Shown piece after piece: positions 4,979 through 52,104 of a stretch of DNA of 64,000 bases. Under the pieces are notes generated by a model, which saw only the letters and a program-made list of their open reading frames with translations, was not told where the DNA came from and made no database searches. The DNA comes from Lachnospiraceae bacterium V9D3004. GTDB lineage: Bacteria > Bacillota > Clostridia > Lachnospirales > Lachnospiraceae. The stretch covers positions 220,706 through 284,705 of the forward strand of contig KK211381.1 of the NCBI GenBank assembly GCA_000621985.1. The letters run 5' to 3'. Within the stretch, counting starts at the first letter, position 1, and each line of letters starts with the position of its first letter. The position numbers were made by a program, and so were the translations under genes.

Positions 4979-7900
4979 ATGAGTCGAAGAGACGATAAGA
5001 GATCTAAAGAGACTGAGATCAATGACAAAGACAGAAGCGACATGAAAACAGAGATCAGTCTCTGGATATTGCTCTTTGTAAGTATAATATTATTGTTATG
5101 TGTATTTAATCTTTGCGGCCCGTTAAGCGGTGTACTCGGATCATTTTTATTCGGTATGGTCGGATCACTGGCATATATATTCCCGATAGCAATGTTTCTT
5201 GTTATCTGTATGATACATCTGAATATCAAGAATAAACCCGTGATTAGAAAGATAATATATGCAATTGCTTTATTCGTTATTATAATTGCCATCTTCGAAC
5301 TCCTTGCAGGTGATTCGGAAGGAAGTATATGGAATTGCTATGTAAACGGTTATAAGACCCATCTTGGCGGCGGTATTATCGGCGGCTGTATCAGCATGGG
5401 ACTTTCCGCTATTATGGGCAGACTTGCAACAGGTATATTGTTATTTGTTGCAGCTATAATATTACTTGTACTTATCACAGGCAAGATGATTGCATCAATT
5501 GCCCTTAATAACAGTTCAGAAAAGTATAATGAATACATGAAGAACAGAAATGAAAAGAAGAAAAGACAGGAAGAAGACGATTTAATAGATTATGACAGTA
5601 TCACCGAAGGTTTTCCCGATGAACTGCCCGAAAACAACAGGAAAAGATCAAAACGACAGGTTTCCTATACATTTCCAAAAGAAGAATCCGTAGTTGATAC
5701 CACAACTGTAGAAGAAACAAAAAATGATGTGATTGTCAAAGAGCCTGTCGAAGAATTGTCTTTTGAAGAAGAAAGCAAAAAAAAAAGCAGCGAACTGATC
5801 GATCAGGGAACTGAAAACAGTAGTGATATAACTACCGGTAAAAATACAGCTTCAGGTAAAGAAACCGCTTCCGCTGATGAAACAGAAGCCGGTGAAGATA
5901 CAGGCGATATGCCTATATACGAAAAAGAGATAGTCGAAAAATTCGGCACGGATCATCCCGTGACAGACAATTCACTTGCAATGCTTGTGGCCAGGGCTCT
6001 TGAAAATGACAGAGTGCAGTATACCGAGTATACGCCTTATGTTGATGATGAACCCGAAGATAAGCTGTATGATAACAATTCGTACAATTTACATACACAG
6101 GAATCTTCAAAATCACAGGATTCTTATATGGAAACCGGTGCGTCAGATTCATACGGTTCTTTAGATTCAAACAATGCATCTGATCCTTATGGTTCGTCCG
6201 GTTCTTACAATGAGTCTAACGCTTATGATGGATCCGACTCATTCAATGAATCCGATTCTTATGATGAGTCTGACTCATTCAACGGGTCCAATTCATATAG
6301 TGGATCCGATTCATACGATAATTCCGATTCATATAATGAGACGGAATCATATGCCGAAACTGTACATGATAAGAAGACATCAGGAATCACATCTAATGAA
6401 TCCCGGGATCCCGGCTCGCTTATACAACGTTCAACTTCTTCCGGCAGTACATTTAATACACCAAAACCGGCAGTGAATGACAACAATACGGATGAAGTTA
6501 CACCTGATCTTTCGGCAGAACCTATACCGTATGTATTCCCGTCAATGGATCTTCTTGAGAAATCACCTGCTTCAGCCAACAAAATGTCAAGAGATACACT
6601 GGAAAAAACTGCCAAAAAACTGCAGGATTGTCTAAAGAGCTTCAAAGTTGAGGTTGAAATGACCGATATTATATGCGGACCGACGGTTACCAGATATGAA
6701 TTAAAACCGGCACTTGGTACAAAGGTTAAGAAGATTACGGAGCTTGAAAATGATATCAAATTGTATCTTGCCGCGACTGATATAAGGATCGAAGCACCGA
6801 TCCCCGGCAAACATGCAGTAGGAATTGAAGTTCCCAATAAAGGAAGTACAATGATCACTCTGCGTGAGATGCTTGAAACAAAGGAATTCAATTCACATTC
6901 ATCCAATGTCGCTTTCGCGGTCGGTAAAGATATCGGTGGTAATAATGTGATTGCCGATATTGCAAAGATGCCTCATATGCTTATTGCTGGAGCTACGGGA
7001 TCCGGTAAGTCCGTATGTATCAATACAATAATTATGAGTATTCTCTACAAGGCTGATCCCAATGATGTCAAGCTGATCATGATCGACCCCAAAGTAGTCG
7101 AGTTAAGTGTATATAACGGAATTCCTCATCTGTGCATTCCGGTCGTTACCGATCCAAAGAAAGCAGCGGCGGCTCTTAACTGGGCTGTTGCAGAGATGAA
7201 TGACAGATATAAGAAATTTGCTGAATTCGGTGTCCGTGACATGAAAGGATTCAATCAGAAAGTCGCTCAGTTAAGAGAGAATCCTCATATGTACACAAAG
7301 ATGCCACAGATAGTTATTATCGTGGATGAGCTTGCCGATCTTATGATGGTTGCTTCACATGATGTTGAAGCTGCAATATGCCGACTTGCCCAGATGGCCC
7401 GTGCAGCCGGACTTCACCTCATCATAGCTACGCAGCGTCCGTCTGTCGACGTTATTACCGGTCTTATAAAAGCAAATGTTCCGTCAAGAATTGCATTTGC
7501 GGTTTCATCTGCCATTGATTCAAGGACGATACTTGATGGCGCCGGTGCCGAAAAGCTTCTCGGTAAAGGTGATATGTTATTCAAACCTCAGGATAAGTCA
7601 AAAGCTGTTCGTGTACAGGGAGCATTTGTATCTGATTCGGAAGTTGCGAGGGTAACCGATTTTGTTAAAGGTCAATACAGTGCACCGGTATATGACATGT
7701 CTATAAGTGAACAGATATCAAATGCCGAGATGAAAGGCAGTAATGCTGAGGTAGTGTCGGAATCTGACGACTCCAATCCTAACGGTTGGGACGAAAAGTT
7801 CGAAGAGGCAGGACGTTTCATCATTGAAAAACAAAAAGCTTCGATCGGAACATTGCAGAGAGTGTTCAAGATCGGATTCAACCGTGGCGCAAGAATTATG

Positions 7901-29374: not shown

Positions 29375-30229
29375 ATGTATGATCAGGTAACACTCGGGCT
29401 CAATGTTGACCCGTTTATTCTAAGTGCTTTGAAAGAAGACATAACAAGTGAGGACGTATCTACAAACAGCGTTATGCCCGAACCGACCAAAGGAGAGGTT
29501 GACCTCATATGCAAACAGGACGGGATCATATGCGGTCTTCAGGTATTTGAAAGGGTATTTACTTTATTAGACAATACAACTGTTGTTGATATGTATGTTA
29601 AGGACGGTGATCATGTAAAGAACGGTGATCTGCTCGCAAAAGTGACCGGCGACATCAGAGTTTTGTTATGTGGTGAAAGGACGGCTCTTAATTATCTGCA
29701 GAGAATGAGCGGTATTGCAACATATACCAGGGAAGTGAGCTCACTTCTTGAAGGCACCGGAATAAAATTACTGGATACAAGAAAGACCACTCCAAACAAC
29801 AGAATATTCGAAAAATATTCCGTAAGGATCGGAGGAGGCAACAATCACAGATATAATCTGTCTGACGGTGTACTTCTTAAAGATAATCATATAGGCGCAG
29901 CCGGAGGCGTAAAGAAAGCGATTGAAATGGCAAAAGAATATGCGCCATTTGTGCGAAAGATTGAAGTCGAAGTCGAGAATATCGACATGGTAAAGGAAGC
30001 TGTTGAAGCCGGAGCAGATATAATCATGCTTGATAATATGACTACCGAACAATTAAAAGAAGCAATAGATCATATTGCGGGCAGGGCTGAGATTGAAGTG
30101 TCCGGCAACGTTACAAAAGAGAATATCGAACGTATAAAAGGACTTGGAGTCGATTATGTATCAAGCGGTGCACTTACACATTCCGCACCGATCATGGACA
30201 TATCTTTAAAGAATCTTCATGCTGTATAG
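29375..30229 (+). CDS. nadC: Quinolinate phosphoribosyltransferase (decarboxylating)
   Basis: Converts quinolinate and PRPP to nicotinate mononucleotide. 284 residues. Conserved 'LLCGERTALNYLQRMSGIAT' core, 'LDTRKTTP' (~130), 'GGGNNHRYNLSDGVLLKDNH' and 'EVEVEN' are visible. Third step of the de novo NAD route encoded here. A 124-bp spacer separates it from nadB; GAGG precedes ATG 29375. Confidence 0.96.
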   Translation: MYDQVTLGLNVDPFILSALKEDITSEDVSTNSVMPEPTKGEVDLICKQDGIICGLQVFERVFTLLDNTTVVDMYVKDGDHVKNGDLLAKVTGDIRVLLCGERTALNYLQRMSGIATYTREVSSLLEGTGIKLLDTRKTTPNNRIFEKYSVRIGGGNNHRYNLSDGVLLKDNHIGAAGGVKKAIEMAKEYAPFVRKIEVEVENIDMVKEAVEAGADIIMLDNMTTEQLKEAIDHIAGRAEIEVSGNVTKENIERIKGLGVDYVSSGALTHSAPIMDISLKNLHAV

Positions 30230-46680: not shown

Positions 46681-47304
46681 ATGGTTGATAATCAGGAATA
46701 TAAAGATATTGAAATGAATGAAAATGATGCTGAAATTCCGGTATCGGAGGATCAGCATGTTAATGATCGCAGAGCATCGATCAGAAAACATGTGATTGAA
46801 GCTCTTATCTATGTAGTTGTAATATTCTGTTGTATATTTATTGTACCTGAATATGTTGTACAGCGTACTATAGTTGACGGTAAATCAATGACTGATACGC
46901 TTCAGAACAAAGACAATCTGATAGTTAATAAATTCGCTTATCTGATCGGTGATCCTGACAGATTTGATATTGTAGTTTTATATCCTTACGGTCGTGAGAA
47001 TAAGAACAAATATTACGTCAAAAGAGTCATCGGTTTGCCGGGAGAGACTATCCAGATAAAAGATTCCGACATTCTTATCAATGGCAATGTGTTGGAAGAT
47101 CCGTATCGAAGAGAACCGTATATTAATGATCCGGGCATGTTGAGAGAACCGCTTACTCTTGGGGAAGACGAATATTTTGTTATGGGAGACAACAGAAACG
47201 GAAGCTCTGACAGCAGGGATTTCGGCCCGGTAAATAAGAAAAATCTGGATGGACACGTAGTATTTCGAATATATCCGTTCAACTCATTCGGATTTGTTGA
47301 TTGA
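46681..47304 (+). CDS. lepB: Signal peptidase I (first of tandem pair)
   Basis: Membrane serine protease that removes Sec/Tat signal peptides. 207 residues: cytosolic acidic N terminus, one membrane helix (~38-58), then the catalytic domain with Ser69 in 'DGKSMTDTL', Lys114 in 'YYVKRVIGLPGE' and the 'MGDNRNGSSDSRDFG' box. Intact type-I (P-type) dyad. A second, clearly related gene follows after 41 bp. Confidence 0.94.
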   Translation: MVDNQEYKDIEMNENDAEIPVSEDQHVNDRRASIRKHVIEALIYVVVIFCCIFIVPEYVVQRTIVDGKSMTDTLQNKDNLIVNKFAYLIGDPDRFDIVVLYPYGRENKNKYYVKRVIGLPGETIQIKDSDILINGNVLEDPYRREPYINDPGMLREPLTLGEDEYFVMGDNRNGSSDSRDFGPVNKKNLDGHVVFRIYPFNSFGFVD

Positions 47305-47345: not shown

Positions 47346-47969
47346 TTGGATAATCCGAATAACATAAGCATTAATAACACTGAAGATAATAATGTCGAGA
47401 ACAAACAAGATAATAATCAAGATAAAAAGAGAAATATAAAAAGCATTATTATTGAATTCGCTATATATATTGTTTTGATCATTATATGTGTATTTGTTGT
47501 GCCGAGATATGTTGTGCAAAGGACCGTGGTGGATGGAGAATCTATGATGGATACTTTATTTGACGGTGACAGTGTTATTGTAAATAAATTCTCGTACAAC
47601 ATATTTAAACCGGAAAGATTTGAGATAATCGTTTTTTACCCATACGGACGTGATGATCCGGATGATTATTATGTAAAGAGGATTATCGGACTTCCCGGTG
47701 AAAAAGTCCAGATAAAAGGTTCGGACATATATATAAATGATGAGATACTTGAAGAAAACTACGGCAAGGATCCGATAACAGATCCCGGAATTGCTGAGGA
47801 ACCTGTAATTCTTGCTGAAGATGAATATTTTGTTATGGGAGACAACAGAGAGATCAGTGAAGACAGTCGTTACTTCGGTCCCGTAAAAAAAGAAAACATA
47901 TCAGGACATGTTTTGATGCGAATATATCCATTTAATAAGATAACATTACTGGCTTCGCATGTTGATTAA
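47346..47969 (+). CDS. lepB: Signal peptidase I (second of tandem pair)
   Basis: Paralogue of the preceding gene, the same length (207 residues). Asn/Asp-rich N terminus, one membrane helix (~33-53), Ser66 in 'DGESMMDTL', Lys111 in 'YYVKRIIGLPGE', and 'MGDNREISEDSRYFG'. Start is TTG 47346, preceded by AAGGAGG. Divergence through the N terminus and mid-region suggests an old duplication with possible division of substrates. A terminator follows. Confidence 0.93.
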   Translation: MDNPNNISINNTEDNNVENKQDNNQDKKRNIKSIIIEFAIYIVLIIICVFVVPRYVVQRTVVDGESMMDTLFDGDSVIVNKFSYNIFKPERFEIIVFYPYGRDDPDDYYVKRIIGLPGEKVQIKGSDIYINDEILEENYGKDPITDPGIAEEPVILAEDEYFVMGDNREISEDSRYFGPVKKENISGHVLMRIYPFNKITLLASHVD

Positions 47970-48022: not shown

Positions 48023-48059
48023 ACAGCTGTGTGCTTAATTGTACGCAGCTGTTTTTTTA
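48023..48059 (+). terminator. Terminator after the lepB pair
   Basis: ACAGCTGTGTGC (48023-48034) pairs with GTACGCAGCTGT (48041-48052), one G-U and one mismatch, followed by seven T residues. A smaller GTAAGGCC/GGCCGTTAC hairpin (47976-47999) precedes it. It closes the long yicC-to-lepB gene run. Confidence 0.85.
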
Positions 48060-48118: not shown

Positions 48119-48178
48119 TTGACAAACACATGTTCGCATGTTATCATAAACAAAACAAGTGTTCGGAACAAATATTCG
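48119..48178 (+). promoter_or_regulatory. SOS-type promoter with three LexA-box-like sites
   Basis: A strong promoter (TTGACA 48119-48124, 17-bp spacer, TATCAT 48142-48147) carries a LexA-like box on the minus strand at 48123-48136 (CGAACATGTGTTTG), lying between -35 and -10. A second (48152-48165, CGAACACTTGTTTT, minus) falls at the predicted start, and a third (48165-48178, GGAACAAATATTCG) just downstream. The Gram-positive LexA/DinR consensus is CGAAC-N4-GTTYC: box 1 has one mismatch, boxes 2 and 3 have two. Three clustered sites imply tight repression. Confidence 0.75.
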
Positions 48179-48209
48179 AACGCATATAAACACAAGGAGG
48201 ATGAATGAT

Positions 48210-48527
48210 ATGTTATATAAGAGTGATTATAATTACAGAGCGAGAAGAGTGTTGTTAATATGTGCAAGTGTAATGTTTGCATCGGTATTATTATTTTGTA
48301 TTGTTAAGAACGTTAAGGCATCCCCTAACGAAACATCCTTAAGAACATTTCATTGTGATTCGGTTCTGATCGAGGCCAATGATTCGTTATGGACGATTGC
48401 CTCAAGATATTTTACCGATGAATATGAAGATATGAATAACTATATCAAGATATTAAAAGAAGCTAACGGACTTAAAAGTGATACGATTCATGAAGGATGT
48501 TATCTGACAGTTCCGTTTTACAGATGA
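48210..48527 (+). CDS. YneA-like LysM membrane protein, probable SOS division inhibitor
   Basis: 105 residues: short basic N terminus, one membrane helix (~13-33), and a LysM-like domain (~50-102, 'DSLWTIASRYF' and 'GCYLTVPF'). This is the architecture of YneA, the SOS-induced cell-division suppressor of Bacillus subtilis, normally next to lexA; lexA is not nearby here. ATG 48210 has AAGGAGG at 48194-48200 with a 9-nt spacer; the in-frame ATG 48201 directly abuts that site, and the upstream GTG 48159 lies inside the LexA-like sites. The link to YneA rests on domain layout plus operator sites, not on close sequence identity. Confidence 0.75.
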   Translation: MLYKSDYNYRARRVLLICASVMFASVLLFCIVKNVKASPNETSLRTFHCDSVLIEANDSLWTIASRYFTDEYEDMNNYIKILKEANGLKSDTIHEGCYLTVPFYR

Positions 48528-48613: not shown

Positions 48614-48641
48614 TTAACAATATAACAGAATAGCATATAAT
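48614..48641 (+). promoter_or_regulatory. Candidate promoter for the amidase gene
   Basis: TTAACA (48614-48619) and TATAAT (48636-48641) are 16 bp apart. Two direct copies of ATGACACA (48593-48600 and 48603-48610), one helical turn apart, lie just upstream of the -35, a layout suited to an activator. Confidence 0.45.
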
Positions 48642-48722: not shown

Positions 48723-50891
48723 ATGAATAAATATACAAAATACTTTAAATATCTTTTGTTATGCTTTTTGCTGTTGGTAATCATCTTTCCGGCAAGTGCA
48801 AAGGCAGCATCGTTAAAAATCAAATACAATAATAAAACTGTATTCTATAAAGGTAAACAAGTCACATGTAATCTTGACGGCAAAAAGATCAAGATGAATT
48901 CTACAAAAGGCATAATTCTTAACGGTACAATAATGATGTCATATAAAGATATCATTAAGACAGGTCTGGGTATTTCATGCAGTTATGATTCCGATAGCGG
49001 TGAACTTACGGTTTCCGGTAACGGCAAGACGATTGTTCTTACGCTTGGAAGCAAGAATATGTATGTTAACGATGTAAAGAAAAAATTAAAGCAGGCTCCG
49101 GTCAATGTCAGATATGTTAAAAAGAAGAAGACAAAGCTTCTGGTTCCTGTAAAAGATGTTGTAAAGGCTCTTGGTTATACATATTCATATAACAAGAATA
49201 CCGCAACAGTTTCACTAACTTCACCATATGTAATTAAATATTCGGATGAATGGCATATATATAAGAAATATAAAGGTACCGCAACCTATAACGGACTTGG
49301 GATAAATCTGGATGATATGCCGCTTTTATCCATTAACGGCTGTACTATGGGCCCGGTAAAACTGATCTTTCAGGATAATATGGGTTTGACGTACGATTAT
49401 AATCAGGATACCGGTGTTATAACACTTCAGTCTACACAACATAAGTTAGTGATGTATATTAATAATAATACGGCTATTCTTGATGATAATATTGGTATTT
49501 CACTCAAATCAGCACCTTTAGCCGTACAGAGAAAAGATACAGGATATTCATGTATTATGGCGCCCTTGGCTACAATTGCAAGTGTTTTCGAATTCGGATA
49601 TAAATGGAATTCATCCAAACATACCGCAACAATAACCAGAGTAAATTATCTTGATATCAATGCAGAACAGGGCTTTTATGATAATTCGGTTTATTCTAAC
49701 GGATTAACAGGTATTAATGCGGTTTATGACCTTACAATAAAAAATCTTGTATTTACATTTAAATTTACCAATCCAATAGACAGTAATAACGTTATAGTGA
49801 CTCAGGATGATGCTTCAAAGCTGTTGGCTATTAATATGCCATCCACAAAAAATATGCTTGGTAACGGTACTTCGATCATCAATAATTATAAATTGAATAC
49901 AATTGATTATATGGATGGAACAGATAAGAATACTGTGATTTTTTTCCATTATAATAACAGTATAAATTATTATTTTTCCATATCAGGCAACGAATTAAAG
50001 ATGATATTTGCAAAGCAGCCGGATAATAACAATTATGCTGTTAACATACCGCTTCCCGAAGGTGTATTATTTAACAGTATAATGACTGAAGATCACTATT
50101 ACAATAATGAATTTGTTGTTAATCTACCAGGTGATCAGACTGCGTTTTATGCAGCAAAGAATAACATTACCATTGCATCAAGTCTCATTACCTCGTATAA
50201 CGCAGTATATAATCCGACAACTGAATATACCGATATTACATTTTCAACCAACAGTGCCGGTATATTAGGTTTCAGACTGTATGAATCAGGTAATTCTGTA
50301 GGGATCAGAGTCGGTAATCCACAGGATGTATATGATAATATAGTTATTCTCGATCCGGGCCATGGCGGAAAAGATCCGGGAGCCGTAAGTAATAATAAGA
50401 ATGAAAGTGATGTAAATCTTTCGATATTATACAGTAAAGCCAGAAAGTATTTTGATTCTGCAGATTCCAAGATAAAAGCATATTGGACAAGAACCGATGA
50501 TACATTTATCACACTGGCTGACAGGGCAGCATTTGCTTCGAAAATGAATGCAGATCTTTTTGTAAGTCTTCATATGAATTCAAGTAATAATTCGGCTAAA
50601 GGTACAGAGATATATTATTGCAGTACCAATAATGAAGCTAATGAATTCGGATTGACAAGTAAAGAGCTTGCCACGAAACTTCTGAATAATATTGTGCCGG
50701 CTATTGGTACAAGTAAACGTGAAGTAAAATCTGCGAACTATTATGTATTAAAACACAATACGGTTCCGGCAGTACTAATTGAACTGGGATTCATGACAAA
50801 CATGGTCGATCTTAATATAATCACCAATGCCGCAAAACAGGATGCAGCTGCAAAAGCTATATATGACACGTTATTATCAATATTTTATTAG
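48723..50891 (+). CDS. N-acetylmuramoyl-L-alanine amidase (Amidase_3) with copper-amine-oxidase-like N domains
   Basis: Exported peptidoglycan hydrolase of 722 residues that cuts the bond between muramic acid and the stem peptide. Signal peptide to ~28 ('FPASAKA'). Then two or three copper-amine-oxidase-N-like beta domains (~35-310), an AMIN-like stretch (~330-530), and the zinc amidase domain from ~540: 'ILDPGHGGKDPGAV' (first zinc His), 'ESDVNLS', 'SLHMNSSNNS' (second His) and 'AVLIELGFMTN' (catalytic Glu). Complete active site. Its end is 8 bp from the convergent recombinase gene. Confidence 0.92.
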   Translation: MNKYTKYFKYLLLCFLLLVIIFPASAKAASLKIKYNNKTVFYKGKQVTCNLDGKKIKMNSTKGIILNGTIMMSYKDIIKTGLGISCSYDSDSGELTVSGNGKTIVLTLGSKNMYVNDVKKKLKQAPVNVRYVKKKKTKLLVPVKDVVKALGYTYSYNKNTATVSLTSPYVIKYSDEWHIYKKYKGTATYNGLGINLDDMPLLSINGCTMGPVKLIFQDNMGLTYDYNQDTGVITLQSTQHKLVMYINNNTAILDDNIGISLKSAPLAVQRKDTGYSCIMAPLATIASVFEFGYKWNSSKHTATITRVNYLDINAEQGFYDNSVYSNGLTGINAVYDLTIKNLVFTFKFTNPIDSNNVIVTQDDASKLLAINMPSTKNMLGNGTSIINNYKLNTIDYMDGTDKNTVIFFHYNNSINYYFSISGNELKMIFAKQPDNNNYAVNIPLPEGVLFNSIMTEDHYYNNEFVVNLPGDQTAFYAAKNNITIASSLITSYNAVYNPTTEYTDITFSTNSAGILGFRLYESGNSVGIRVGNPQDVYDNIVILDPGHGGKDPGAVSNNKNESDVNLSILYSKARKYFDSADSKIKAYWTRTDDTFITLADRAAFASKMNADLFVSLHMNSSNNSAKGTEIYYCSTNNEANEFGLTSKELATKLLNNIVPAIGTSKREVKSANYYVLKHNTVPAVLIELGFMTNMVDLNIITNAAKQDAAAKAIYDTLLSIFY

Positions 50892-50899
50892 ATTGTTCA

Positions 50900-51958
50900 T
50901 CATTTCCTCAATGAAACTGCACTTGCTGCCATTCGTTTTCTGTCTTCATCAATGGCAGCATAGTGTTTTTTCGTTGTATTGACATCATTATGGCCAAGAA
51001 CTTCGGCAACAAGATATATATCCCCGGTTTCTCTGTATAGGTTGGTGCCATACGTACTGCGAAGCTTATGTGGTGTAATATGCTTGAAAGTTGTTACTTT
51101 GCTTGCGTATTCATTTACAAGATTTTCAATGCCCTGGACACTGATGCGTTTTCTCTGTATTGATAAGAAAAATGCATTCTCATGGCCTTCGCAGGCAGTA
51201 ATATTTTCCCTTACGTCAAGATAATCAGACAGTGCCTTTTCAACTTCCTCACCAAAATATACATAATCCTCTTTTTGACCTTTTCGCATGATCTTAATAC
51301 GGTCATTCTTAAAATCTATATCATCAATATCAAGACCAACACATTCACTTACACGAATACCGGTGCCAAGCAGAAGAGTAAATATTGCGAGATTGCGGAC
51401 TTTGTTCTTATCGTAATATACTTTTTTCATTCCTGTAAGATTATCGCCACCATGCTCAACCATATCGAGTAATTCAGCAACCTCATCATAATCAAGTCTT
51501 ACAATTTCTTTTTTCCTTAATTTGGGCATATCGATGAGTAATGTTGGATTTGTTTTTATAAATTGTTTACGATAATAATACCCGTAAAAACTTCTTAAAG
51601 CAGACATTTTTCTGTGAATGCCACGATTATCATTCTTATTATAATTACCGTCATTGGATTCATATACTTTAAGATATTCCATATATTCCTCAAGATCAAC
51701 AGCCGTTATATCATCAAGGACAGATATTGGAAAATCTTTTGTGGAATAATTCTTATACAAAGGATTACTGTCAATCAGATATTTGAAGAATAATCTGATG
51801 TCATATACATAAGATATTCTGGTTTTGGTCGTAGTTGTAGTTTCCAATGCACGAAAATAATCGCGCACAAAGTCCGGAAGCGTCTTTAACACTTCACGCA
51901 GTTTTAAAGTGTTGGCTACATCAAGTTCTTCATGATAAGATAATTTCTTCGGTGGCAT
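50900..51958 (-). CDS. Tyrosine recombinase, XerS-like
   Basis: 352 residues with an N-terminal SAM-like DNA-binding domain (~25-135) and a complete catalytic domain: Arg202 ('GTGIRVSE'), Lys226, His297 and Arg300 ('PHKLRSTYG'), His323 ('LGH') and Tyr333 ('KHYAAI'). At 352 residues it is longer than XerC/XerD (~300) and close to single-recombinase systems such as streptococcal XerS. No excisionase, phage or integron gene adjoins it, so a chromosome-dimer resolution role is likelier than mobility. A dif-like palindrome lies ~110 bp upstream. Confidence 0.85.
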   Translation of the reverse strand: MPPKKLSYHEELDVANTLKLREVLKTLPDFVRDYFRALETTTTTKTRISYVYDIRLFFKYLIDSNPLYKNYSTKDFPISVLDDITAVDLEEYMEYLKVYESNDGNYNKNDNRGIHRKMSALRSFYGYYYRKQFIKTNPTLLIDMPKLRKKEIVRLDYDEVAELLDMVEHGGDNLTGMKKVYYDKNKVRNLAIFTLLLGTGIRVSECVGLDIDDIDFKNDRIKIMRKGQKEDYVYFGEEVEKALSDYLDVRENITACEGHENAFFLSIQRKRISVQGIENLVNEYASKVTTFKHITPHKLRSTYGTNLYRETGDIYLVAEVLGHNDVNTTKKHYAAIDEDRKRMAASAVSLRK

Positions 51959-52070
51959 ATGAATCAGACTCCTTAATCAACATGTTTATTTAATGAATTA
52001 AATATAGAGAAATCCTATTAATAATTGGATCATATAAATATAATAACATATATCCGTTATTCCTGTAAAG

Positions 52071-52104
52071 CTCTTTTTGAAAAACTGGAGTTTGTCCAAG
52101 AGAG
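52071..52104. other. Candidate dif-like recombination site
   Basis: A 34-bp imperfect palindrome (arms CTCTTTTTGAAAAACT and AGTTTGTCCAAGAGAG, 13 of 16 positions complementary, 2-bp centre) lies upstream of the recombinase gene, beyond the blaI terminator. Two ~11-bp arms around a ~6-bp centre can be drawn within it. In single-recombinase systems the dif site often lies just upstream of its recombinase gene. It could instead be an unrelated protein site. Confidence 0.45.

Follow-up and report, generated by a model that had tools for sequence, protein, structure and literature searches.

What is the small gene at positions 48210 to 48527 of this stretch, and why does it lie apart from lexA? Its host is a Lachnospiraceae genome available as a 3.42-Mb draft of 32 contigs (G000); the window, by which we mean the whole stretch of 64 000 nucleotides analysed, belongs to contig C3 (G000:C3:220706-284705). 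The original prediction, made from the letters alone, had described a gene with a membrane helix and a LysM domain, a strong promoter with LexA boxes, and particular neighbours, and this overall observation was confirmed. Starting from what is seen in the DNA, namely the sequence itself, the boxes, orthology, synteny, a skew turn and a dif-like site, we consider it very probable that the gene encodes a YneA-type SOS division inhibitor, located at the replication terminus together with a probable dimer-resolution module. The skew turn, the dif-like site and the XerS-like recombinase at the locus had been missed by the original prediction.

The gene and its translation signal are:

48210..48527, plus strand: YneA-type protein of 105 residues (transmembrane segment, residues 14–32; LysM domain, approximately residues 55–102)
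48195..48200, plus strand: Shine-Dalgarno sequence AGGAGG, read in the sequence, upstream of the start codon at 48210

The domain architecture proved to be as predicted. A hydropathy scan of the 105 residues revealed a single transmembrane segment (residues 14–32), and Pfam recognized the LysM domain with an E-value of 4.6e-7. The same scan found a transmembrane helix in 63 of 64 orthologues; the charge balance favours a cytoplasmic amino terminus for 50 of the 64, which is not decisive for topology. The structure model (pLDDT 88.5, pTM 0.55) is predicted to consist of one long helix and a strand–helix–helix–strand fold. LysM proteins are the top-ranked PDB matches, with a best E-value of 3.8e-16 by sequence profile and of 8.1e-3 by fold, the fold search giving no match at E 0.001.

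The NCBIfam YneA model scores the protein at 48.5 bits (E 6.1e-13), below its equivalog cut-off of 60 bits, which is a naming threshold and no functional definition. All 64 orthologues match this model at E 0.001 or better, and the next-best family is matched by 18 of them. Residue D58 is kept in at least 90% of the 64 orthologues, and S59 is next to it in the protein studied here. In Bacillus subtilis YneA, wall binding by the LysM domain needs D46, T47 and I81; from the D-[TS]-L-W motif we infer that D58 and S59 map to LysM residues of that protein. The kinship to YneA claimed in the original prediction is well supported in silico, by the match of the YneA model to every orthologue.

The region upstream of the gene contains:

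48119..48147, plus strand: sigma-70-type promoter TTGACA-17-TATCAT, 11 of 12 consensus matches
48123..48136, plus strand: LexA-type box 1 in the −35/−10 spacer, CAAACACATGTTCG, no mismatch to CRAACN4GTTYG
48152..48165, plus strand: LexA-type box 2 over the expected start site, AAAACAAGTGTTCG, one mismatch
48165..48178, plus strand: LexA-type box 3, 13 bp after box 2, GGAACAAATATTCG, two mismatches (weak)

These agree with the predicted near-consensus promoter, its spacer box and two further boxes at the start site. The counterpart of box 1 in other genus members is a similar box. A perfect CGAACN4GTTYG occurs at only four places in the 3.42-Mb genome: one is the yneA promoter, and the other three precede recA, a gene for a Y-family polymerase and a gene for a small HTH protein (locus L004, G000:C6, box at 29442). 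The lexA gene of the same genome has a site with one mismatch. Over the whole window, the box pattern with up to two mismatches was found 83 times versus 68.3 expected, which is chance level, and plain box counting in the window is uninformative alone.

The cluster in front of yneA, by contrast, exceeds chance: we counted boxes in the 180 bp upstream of each orthologue, using 721 upstream regions of other ORFs from the same loci as controls. At least one site with no more than one mismatch is present in 9/9 orthologues of the genus and 53/55 others, as compared with 20/721 controls; at least two sites with no more than two mismatches are present in 9/9 and 52/55, as compared with 6/721. The upstream regions of G049 and G092, siteless as called, have three boxes each around a better start codon. 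Loss of the boxes from orthologues keeping the gene had been named beforehand as evidence against the prediction; the comparison was run, and all nine genus members keep them. So do G022, G049 and G052, in which yneA is likewise not beside lexA. SOS control of yneA is thus well supported in silico by predicted LexA boxes. Neighbouring boxes are most often spaced by exactly 13 bp (38/177 pairs; 0/209 shuffled pairs). Tandem boxes at exactly this distance, which is not a whole helical turn, occur in 28 of the 64 orthologue promoters and may allow two repressor dimers to bind next to each other.

Orthologues of yneA were identified in 64 of 98 relatives, as a single copy in 62; G054 entered with its second copy. 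The other 34 gave no orthologue match, and lexA is present in 17 of these. Of the 55 orthologues outside the genus, 51 are oriented divergently from a lexA gene no more than 1.5 kb away. The exceptions are G052, where the two are 4.2 kb apart with other genes in between, and G010, G022 and G049, where they are on different contigs; in G010 they may still be adjacent, because both lie at contig ends. The interval in G052 (L077:8339-12162) is occupied by what reads as a TRAP-type transporter pair and a gene resembling that of cytidylate kinase, and the yneA gene of this genome has retained three LexA-type boxes.

Inside the genus, yneA is adjacent to lexA in none of the eight genomes having both genes. 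They share a contig in three, in the same direction and 29.9, 30.0 and 30.2 kb apart, and are on different contigs in five. The detachment claimed in the original prediction therefore holds, lexA being 29.9 kb away on the same contig, and the rearrangement is genus-wide. Its course can be traced with mutS, which in G000 is located 26 kb downstream of yneA, with lexA beyond it and flipped. Fourteen relatives outside the genus have yneA and mutS on one contig. In five of these (G017, G018, G026, G028 and G035) mutS follows yneA at a distance of 24–32 kb, oriented relative to it as in G000, and lexA is on the other side of yneA from mutS. In four (G012, G024, G062 and G065) side and orientation of mutS agree at distances of 11–128 kb; in G011, G014, G078 and G082 mutS is on the lexA side, and in G080 some 2 Mb separate it from yneA. 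Inversion of the yneA–mutS segment would bring lexA beyond mutS in flipped orientation, and this gene order suggests that lexA was displaced by 30 kb through a rearrangement equivalent to such an inversion. The yicC gene, which alone among the present upstream neighbours was searched in the relatives, is not adjacent to mutS there (closest in G019, at 24 kb); therefore, further rearrangements must have occurred.

The position of the locus on the chromosome became apparent from the GC skew:

50788, no strand: skew turn of the terminus type, where cumulative G minus C peaks within the window

On contig C3, all 27 ten-kb blocks up to 270 kb have a positive skew and all five beyond it a negative skew (895 bases are left out of the blocks). 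Wide sampling covered four genomes, represented by the own contig, G044, G055 and G095 (G080 was left out), and the turn falls at the yneA locus in all four. The sign change lies at 3.26–3.28 Mb in the single contig of G055 (6.93 Mb), with yneA at 3.274 Mb; at 380–414 kb in G095 (3.01 Mb), with yneA at 387.4 kb; and at 80–100 kb in G044 (2.77 Mb), with yneA at 92.7 kb and the opposite turn at 1.42–1.60 Mb. A local analysis was carried out outside the genus for the 38 loci, among 52 with both genes on one stretch, that extend at least 3.5 kb to each side. Across the lexA/yneA pair the skew turned from plus to minus in 18 of the 38 and from minus to plus in none, with no local turn in 20. Among 73 control pieces these numbers were 0, 1 and 72. 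Judged by skew, the yneA locus is at the predicted replication terminus. No such turn is seen in G007 and G009, whose skew is still positive for about 6 and 10 kb, respectively, downstream of yneA.

Two further features lie close to the skew turn:

50900..51958, minus strand: XerS-like tyrosine recombinase of 352 residues (NCBIfam XerS, E 8.8e-65)
52069..52104, minus strand: dif-like site, a 36-bp inverted repeat with two 14-bp arms and a 6-bp centre

The recombinase scores 218.8 bits, below the curated XerS cut-off of 267. Of all proteins in the genome it also scores highest with the XerD model (158.7 bits; the next has 84.6); none exceeds the XerD cut-off of 329.6, which is passed in only four of 14 control genomes. 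When the yneA stretches of 63 relatives were searched by tblastn (1e-15), an XerS-like gene was detected on 38, in 35 of them within 4 kb of yneA, and was not found on 25, G007 and G009 among these.

The dif-like element was found by k-mer sharing and then by profile, a first palindrome scan having revealed no common dif site. It lies 110 bp upstream of the recombinase gene and 1.3 kb from the skew turn at 50788. Eleven of the 14 positions of one arm are complementary to the other, which in random sequence is expected about once in 10 000 cases. The core is identical in the seven genus loci carrying the recombinase and occurs once in the genome with up to three mismatches, the reversed pattern being absent. 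Recombinase and site neighbour yneA in seven of nine genus members, so that yneA has, as judged from these sequences, stayed at the dif-like site there while lexA has gone. The stretches of G007, G008 and G009 gave no convincing match at up to six mismatches. In L070 (G007) and L073 (G009), yneA and its LexA boxes are kept, apart from recombinase and site, neither of which occurs in the 6 kb (G007) and 10 kb (G009) that follow yneA. As yneA stands apart in these two genomes, its link to dif is not obligatory.

Counting two others in the relatives, the site has three sequence forms. The relatives' form AACTATTCG-NN-AAA-N6-TTT-NN-CGAATAGTT (type I, up to three mismatches) occurs in 46 of 98 genomes, 42 of which have a single copy; a reversed control pattern occurs in two of 98. 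For 29 of the 46 genomes a distance to yneA or lexA could be given (median 5.4 kb, maximum 33.5 kb), in 11 the site is on a different contig, and six have no lexA or yneA match. Four genomes with the site consist of one contig. In three of them the distance amounts to 7.1 kb in a genome of 6.93 Mb, 2.1 kb in one of 3.20 Mb and 10.7 kb in one of 3.01 Mb; in the fourth, of 4.7 Mb, the site is 7.9 kb from lexA, and a second, weaker site is also present. Type I sites coincide with the skew turns of G055 and G095. The element at 52069–52104 thus probably corresponds to the expected dif site, for which it is a candidate.

In G022, whose yneA and dif-like site are on another contig than lexA, a filamentous-phage-type replication gene (L088:4778-5743) overlaps the dif-like site at 5642–5677 next to yneA. 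It matches a PHROG family of rolling-circle initiation proteins (E 1e-20) and Pfam REP_ORF2-G2P (E 1.6e-14), which suggests that the phage integrates at dif. Mobile elements exploiting dif/Xer are noted in the accessible part of PMC5357621. SOS control of the xer gene itself was also considered. A LexA-type site with up to one mismatch is present in nine of 40 xer upstream regions, and in eight of these (the seven loci of the genus and L099) the match is the centre of the dif-like site; therefore only the xer gene of L126 could have a LexA box of its own, and SOS control of xer was rejected.

The remaining neighbours are as claimed, two genes for signal peptidase I upstream (46681–47304 and 47346–47969, in tandem directly before yneA) and an amidase gene downstream:

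48023..48052, plus strand: intrinsic terminator after the signal peptidase genes (12-pair stem, T run)
48614..48641, plus strand: promoter-like sequence for the amidase gene, TTAACA-16-TATAAT (11 of 12 consensus matches)
48723..50891, plus strand: gene for an N-acetylmuramoyl-L-alanine amidase (Amidase_3, E 2e-47)

At least one signal peptidase neighbour is kept in all nine genus members with yneA. As partners of yneA these genes were discarded in view of the terminator in between.

The coupling of DNA damage to the wall amidase is the part of the original interpretation that was not supported, whereas SOS control and YneA kinship were, in silico. It would make yneA and the amidase gene one damage-induced wall-remodelling unit. 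The amidase gene follows co-directionally in seven of nine genus members with the gene and also in G020, where lexA is still adjacent, and read-through may occur because a terminator scan found none between the two. Against this, the amidase gene has a promoter-like site of its own, with a block resembling it (by eye) in G001–G004, and the gap is free of boxes in six of eight loci (G001–G005 and G020). The gap of G000 holds one lone site with two mismatches and the 1.3-kb gap of G006 four such sites; in G007 and G009 no amidase gene was found within 4.5 kb after yneA. With only two-mismatch boxes in two of eight gaps, the coupling is unsupported and in our view very unlikely. Somewhat less remote, though still improbable, is a LysM wall protein of another role, such as a SpoIIIM-like sporulation factor, that is SOS-controlled incidentally. 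The topology of one membrane helix and LysM is common to non-inhibitors such as SpoIIIM, according to portions of PMC13396833, and the protein scores under the YneA cut-off; yet YneA is the sole family matched by all orthologues, and the lexA-adjacent ancestry and multi-box promoters also argue for an inhibitor.

A further explanation would treat 52069–52104 as a control element of the recombinase gene, either an operator or a signal in its transcript, and would grant no functional meaning to the position of yneA near the terminus. The short distance between element and gene would fit, recombination at the site being a prediction, and so would the separate location of yneA in G007 and G009. 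The equivalent site of the relatives, however, is often kilobases from xer, is usually single-copy, near lexA or yneA and at the skew turn where sampled, and in G022 is abutted by a phage-type replication gene, as with Xer-using elements. These observations speak against the operator half only; taken as a whole, we judge the explanation unlikely.

For the preferred reading, a YneA-type inhibitor at the terminus, the following sequence of events can be proposed. LexA, bound to the three boxes, would hold the strong yneA promoter off until RecA-driven cleavage of LexA frees it. The protein would enter the membrane, exposing its LysM domain on the outer face, and, if it acts like B. subtilis YneA, dock on FtsW and block septal wall synthesis; three genes of the FtsW/RodA family exceed the cut-off in the genome. 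The block would last until the protein is degraded, for which one Prc/CtpA-type protease gene above cut-off is available. Since yneA is at the terminus with an XerS-like recombinase and a dif-like site, the presumed division brake stands beside a probable dimer-resolution module.

The closeness of yneA and dif may be functional or merely inherited gene order, and a functional coupling strikes us as rather doubtful. Equally tentative is the more general idea that lexA, yneA, xerS-like gene and dif of the Lachnospirales form one functional terminus module, the brake being kept at dif because it works with dif. In such a module the brake may delay septum formation during the resolution of dimers that RecA has made, and a yneA gene in the dif region, replicated among the last, may tie the release of division to chromosome completion. 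The genus offers a natural experiment, with lexA gone and yneA at dif in seven of nine members versus two members in which yneA has gone too. If the linkage is functional, coordination of division arrest and dimer resolution after DNA damage is directly testable. Independently of this, the data extend predicted LexA-controlled YneA-type inhibitors, with their boxes tested, across the Lachnospiraceae and related bacteria, indicate that SOS control survives splitting of the promoter region shared with lexA, and provide a candidate dif site and a single recombinase for a common gut group.

The kind of gene is already known; a yneA–xer–dif set at the terminus with a detachable lexA was not found described. 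Titles and abstract openings of the literature, covered incompletely, named neither a lexA–yneA–xer–dif linkage nor a Lachnospiraceae dif site, and the main text of a paper on Clostridioides difficile LexA (PMC4234289), in the part available, does not mention yneA, cell division or peptidoglycan. A survey of SOS sites in gut bacteria names, as a candidate for new membership, a group of XerD-type recombinases, COG4974 (PMC3998124); the sites concerned may have come from loci such as the yneA–xer–dif ones.

The XerS/difSL system of streptococci and lactococci, as portrayed in sections of PMC5357621 and PMC3025954, likewise has a single recombinase (356 residues versus 352 here) and a site directly beside its gene at the terminus, and xerS is near the skew turn in one Lactobacillus. 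In contrast, difSL has 31 bp with an 11-bp centre versus the 14-6-14 arrangement here, and the present recombinase is below the XerS cut-off and linked to lexA/yneA. Division inhibitors of Gram-positive bacteria are commonly encoded near lexA (PMC6851548, in part); SosA of Staphylococcus aureus, ChiZ of Mycobacterium tuberculosis and DivS of Corynebacterium glutamicum, described there, are SOS-controlled proteins with a single transmembrane segment, as is predicted here, SosA and DivS being set apart by the description of both as lacking LysM. According to excerpts of PMC13396833, B. subtilis YneA reaches the septum via its transmembrane helix, which binds transmembrane segment 7 of FtsW, and its block of septal wall synthesis needs binding of LysM to peptidoglycan. 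With this protein the present one shares the single transmembrane segment with LysM, the LexA boxes and a CtpA-type protease gene in the genome. In B. subtilis, too, lexA–yneA and dif lie within a few tens of kilobases of each other. The Lachnospiraceae gene differs from the YneA family, typically divergent from lexA, in that its lexA is 30 kb off, and from B. subtilis YneA in its score under the NCBIfam cut-off and in its place beside xer and a dif-like site.
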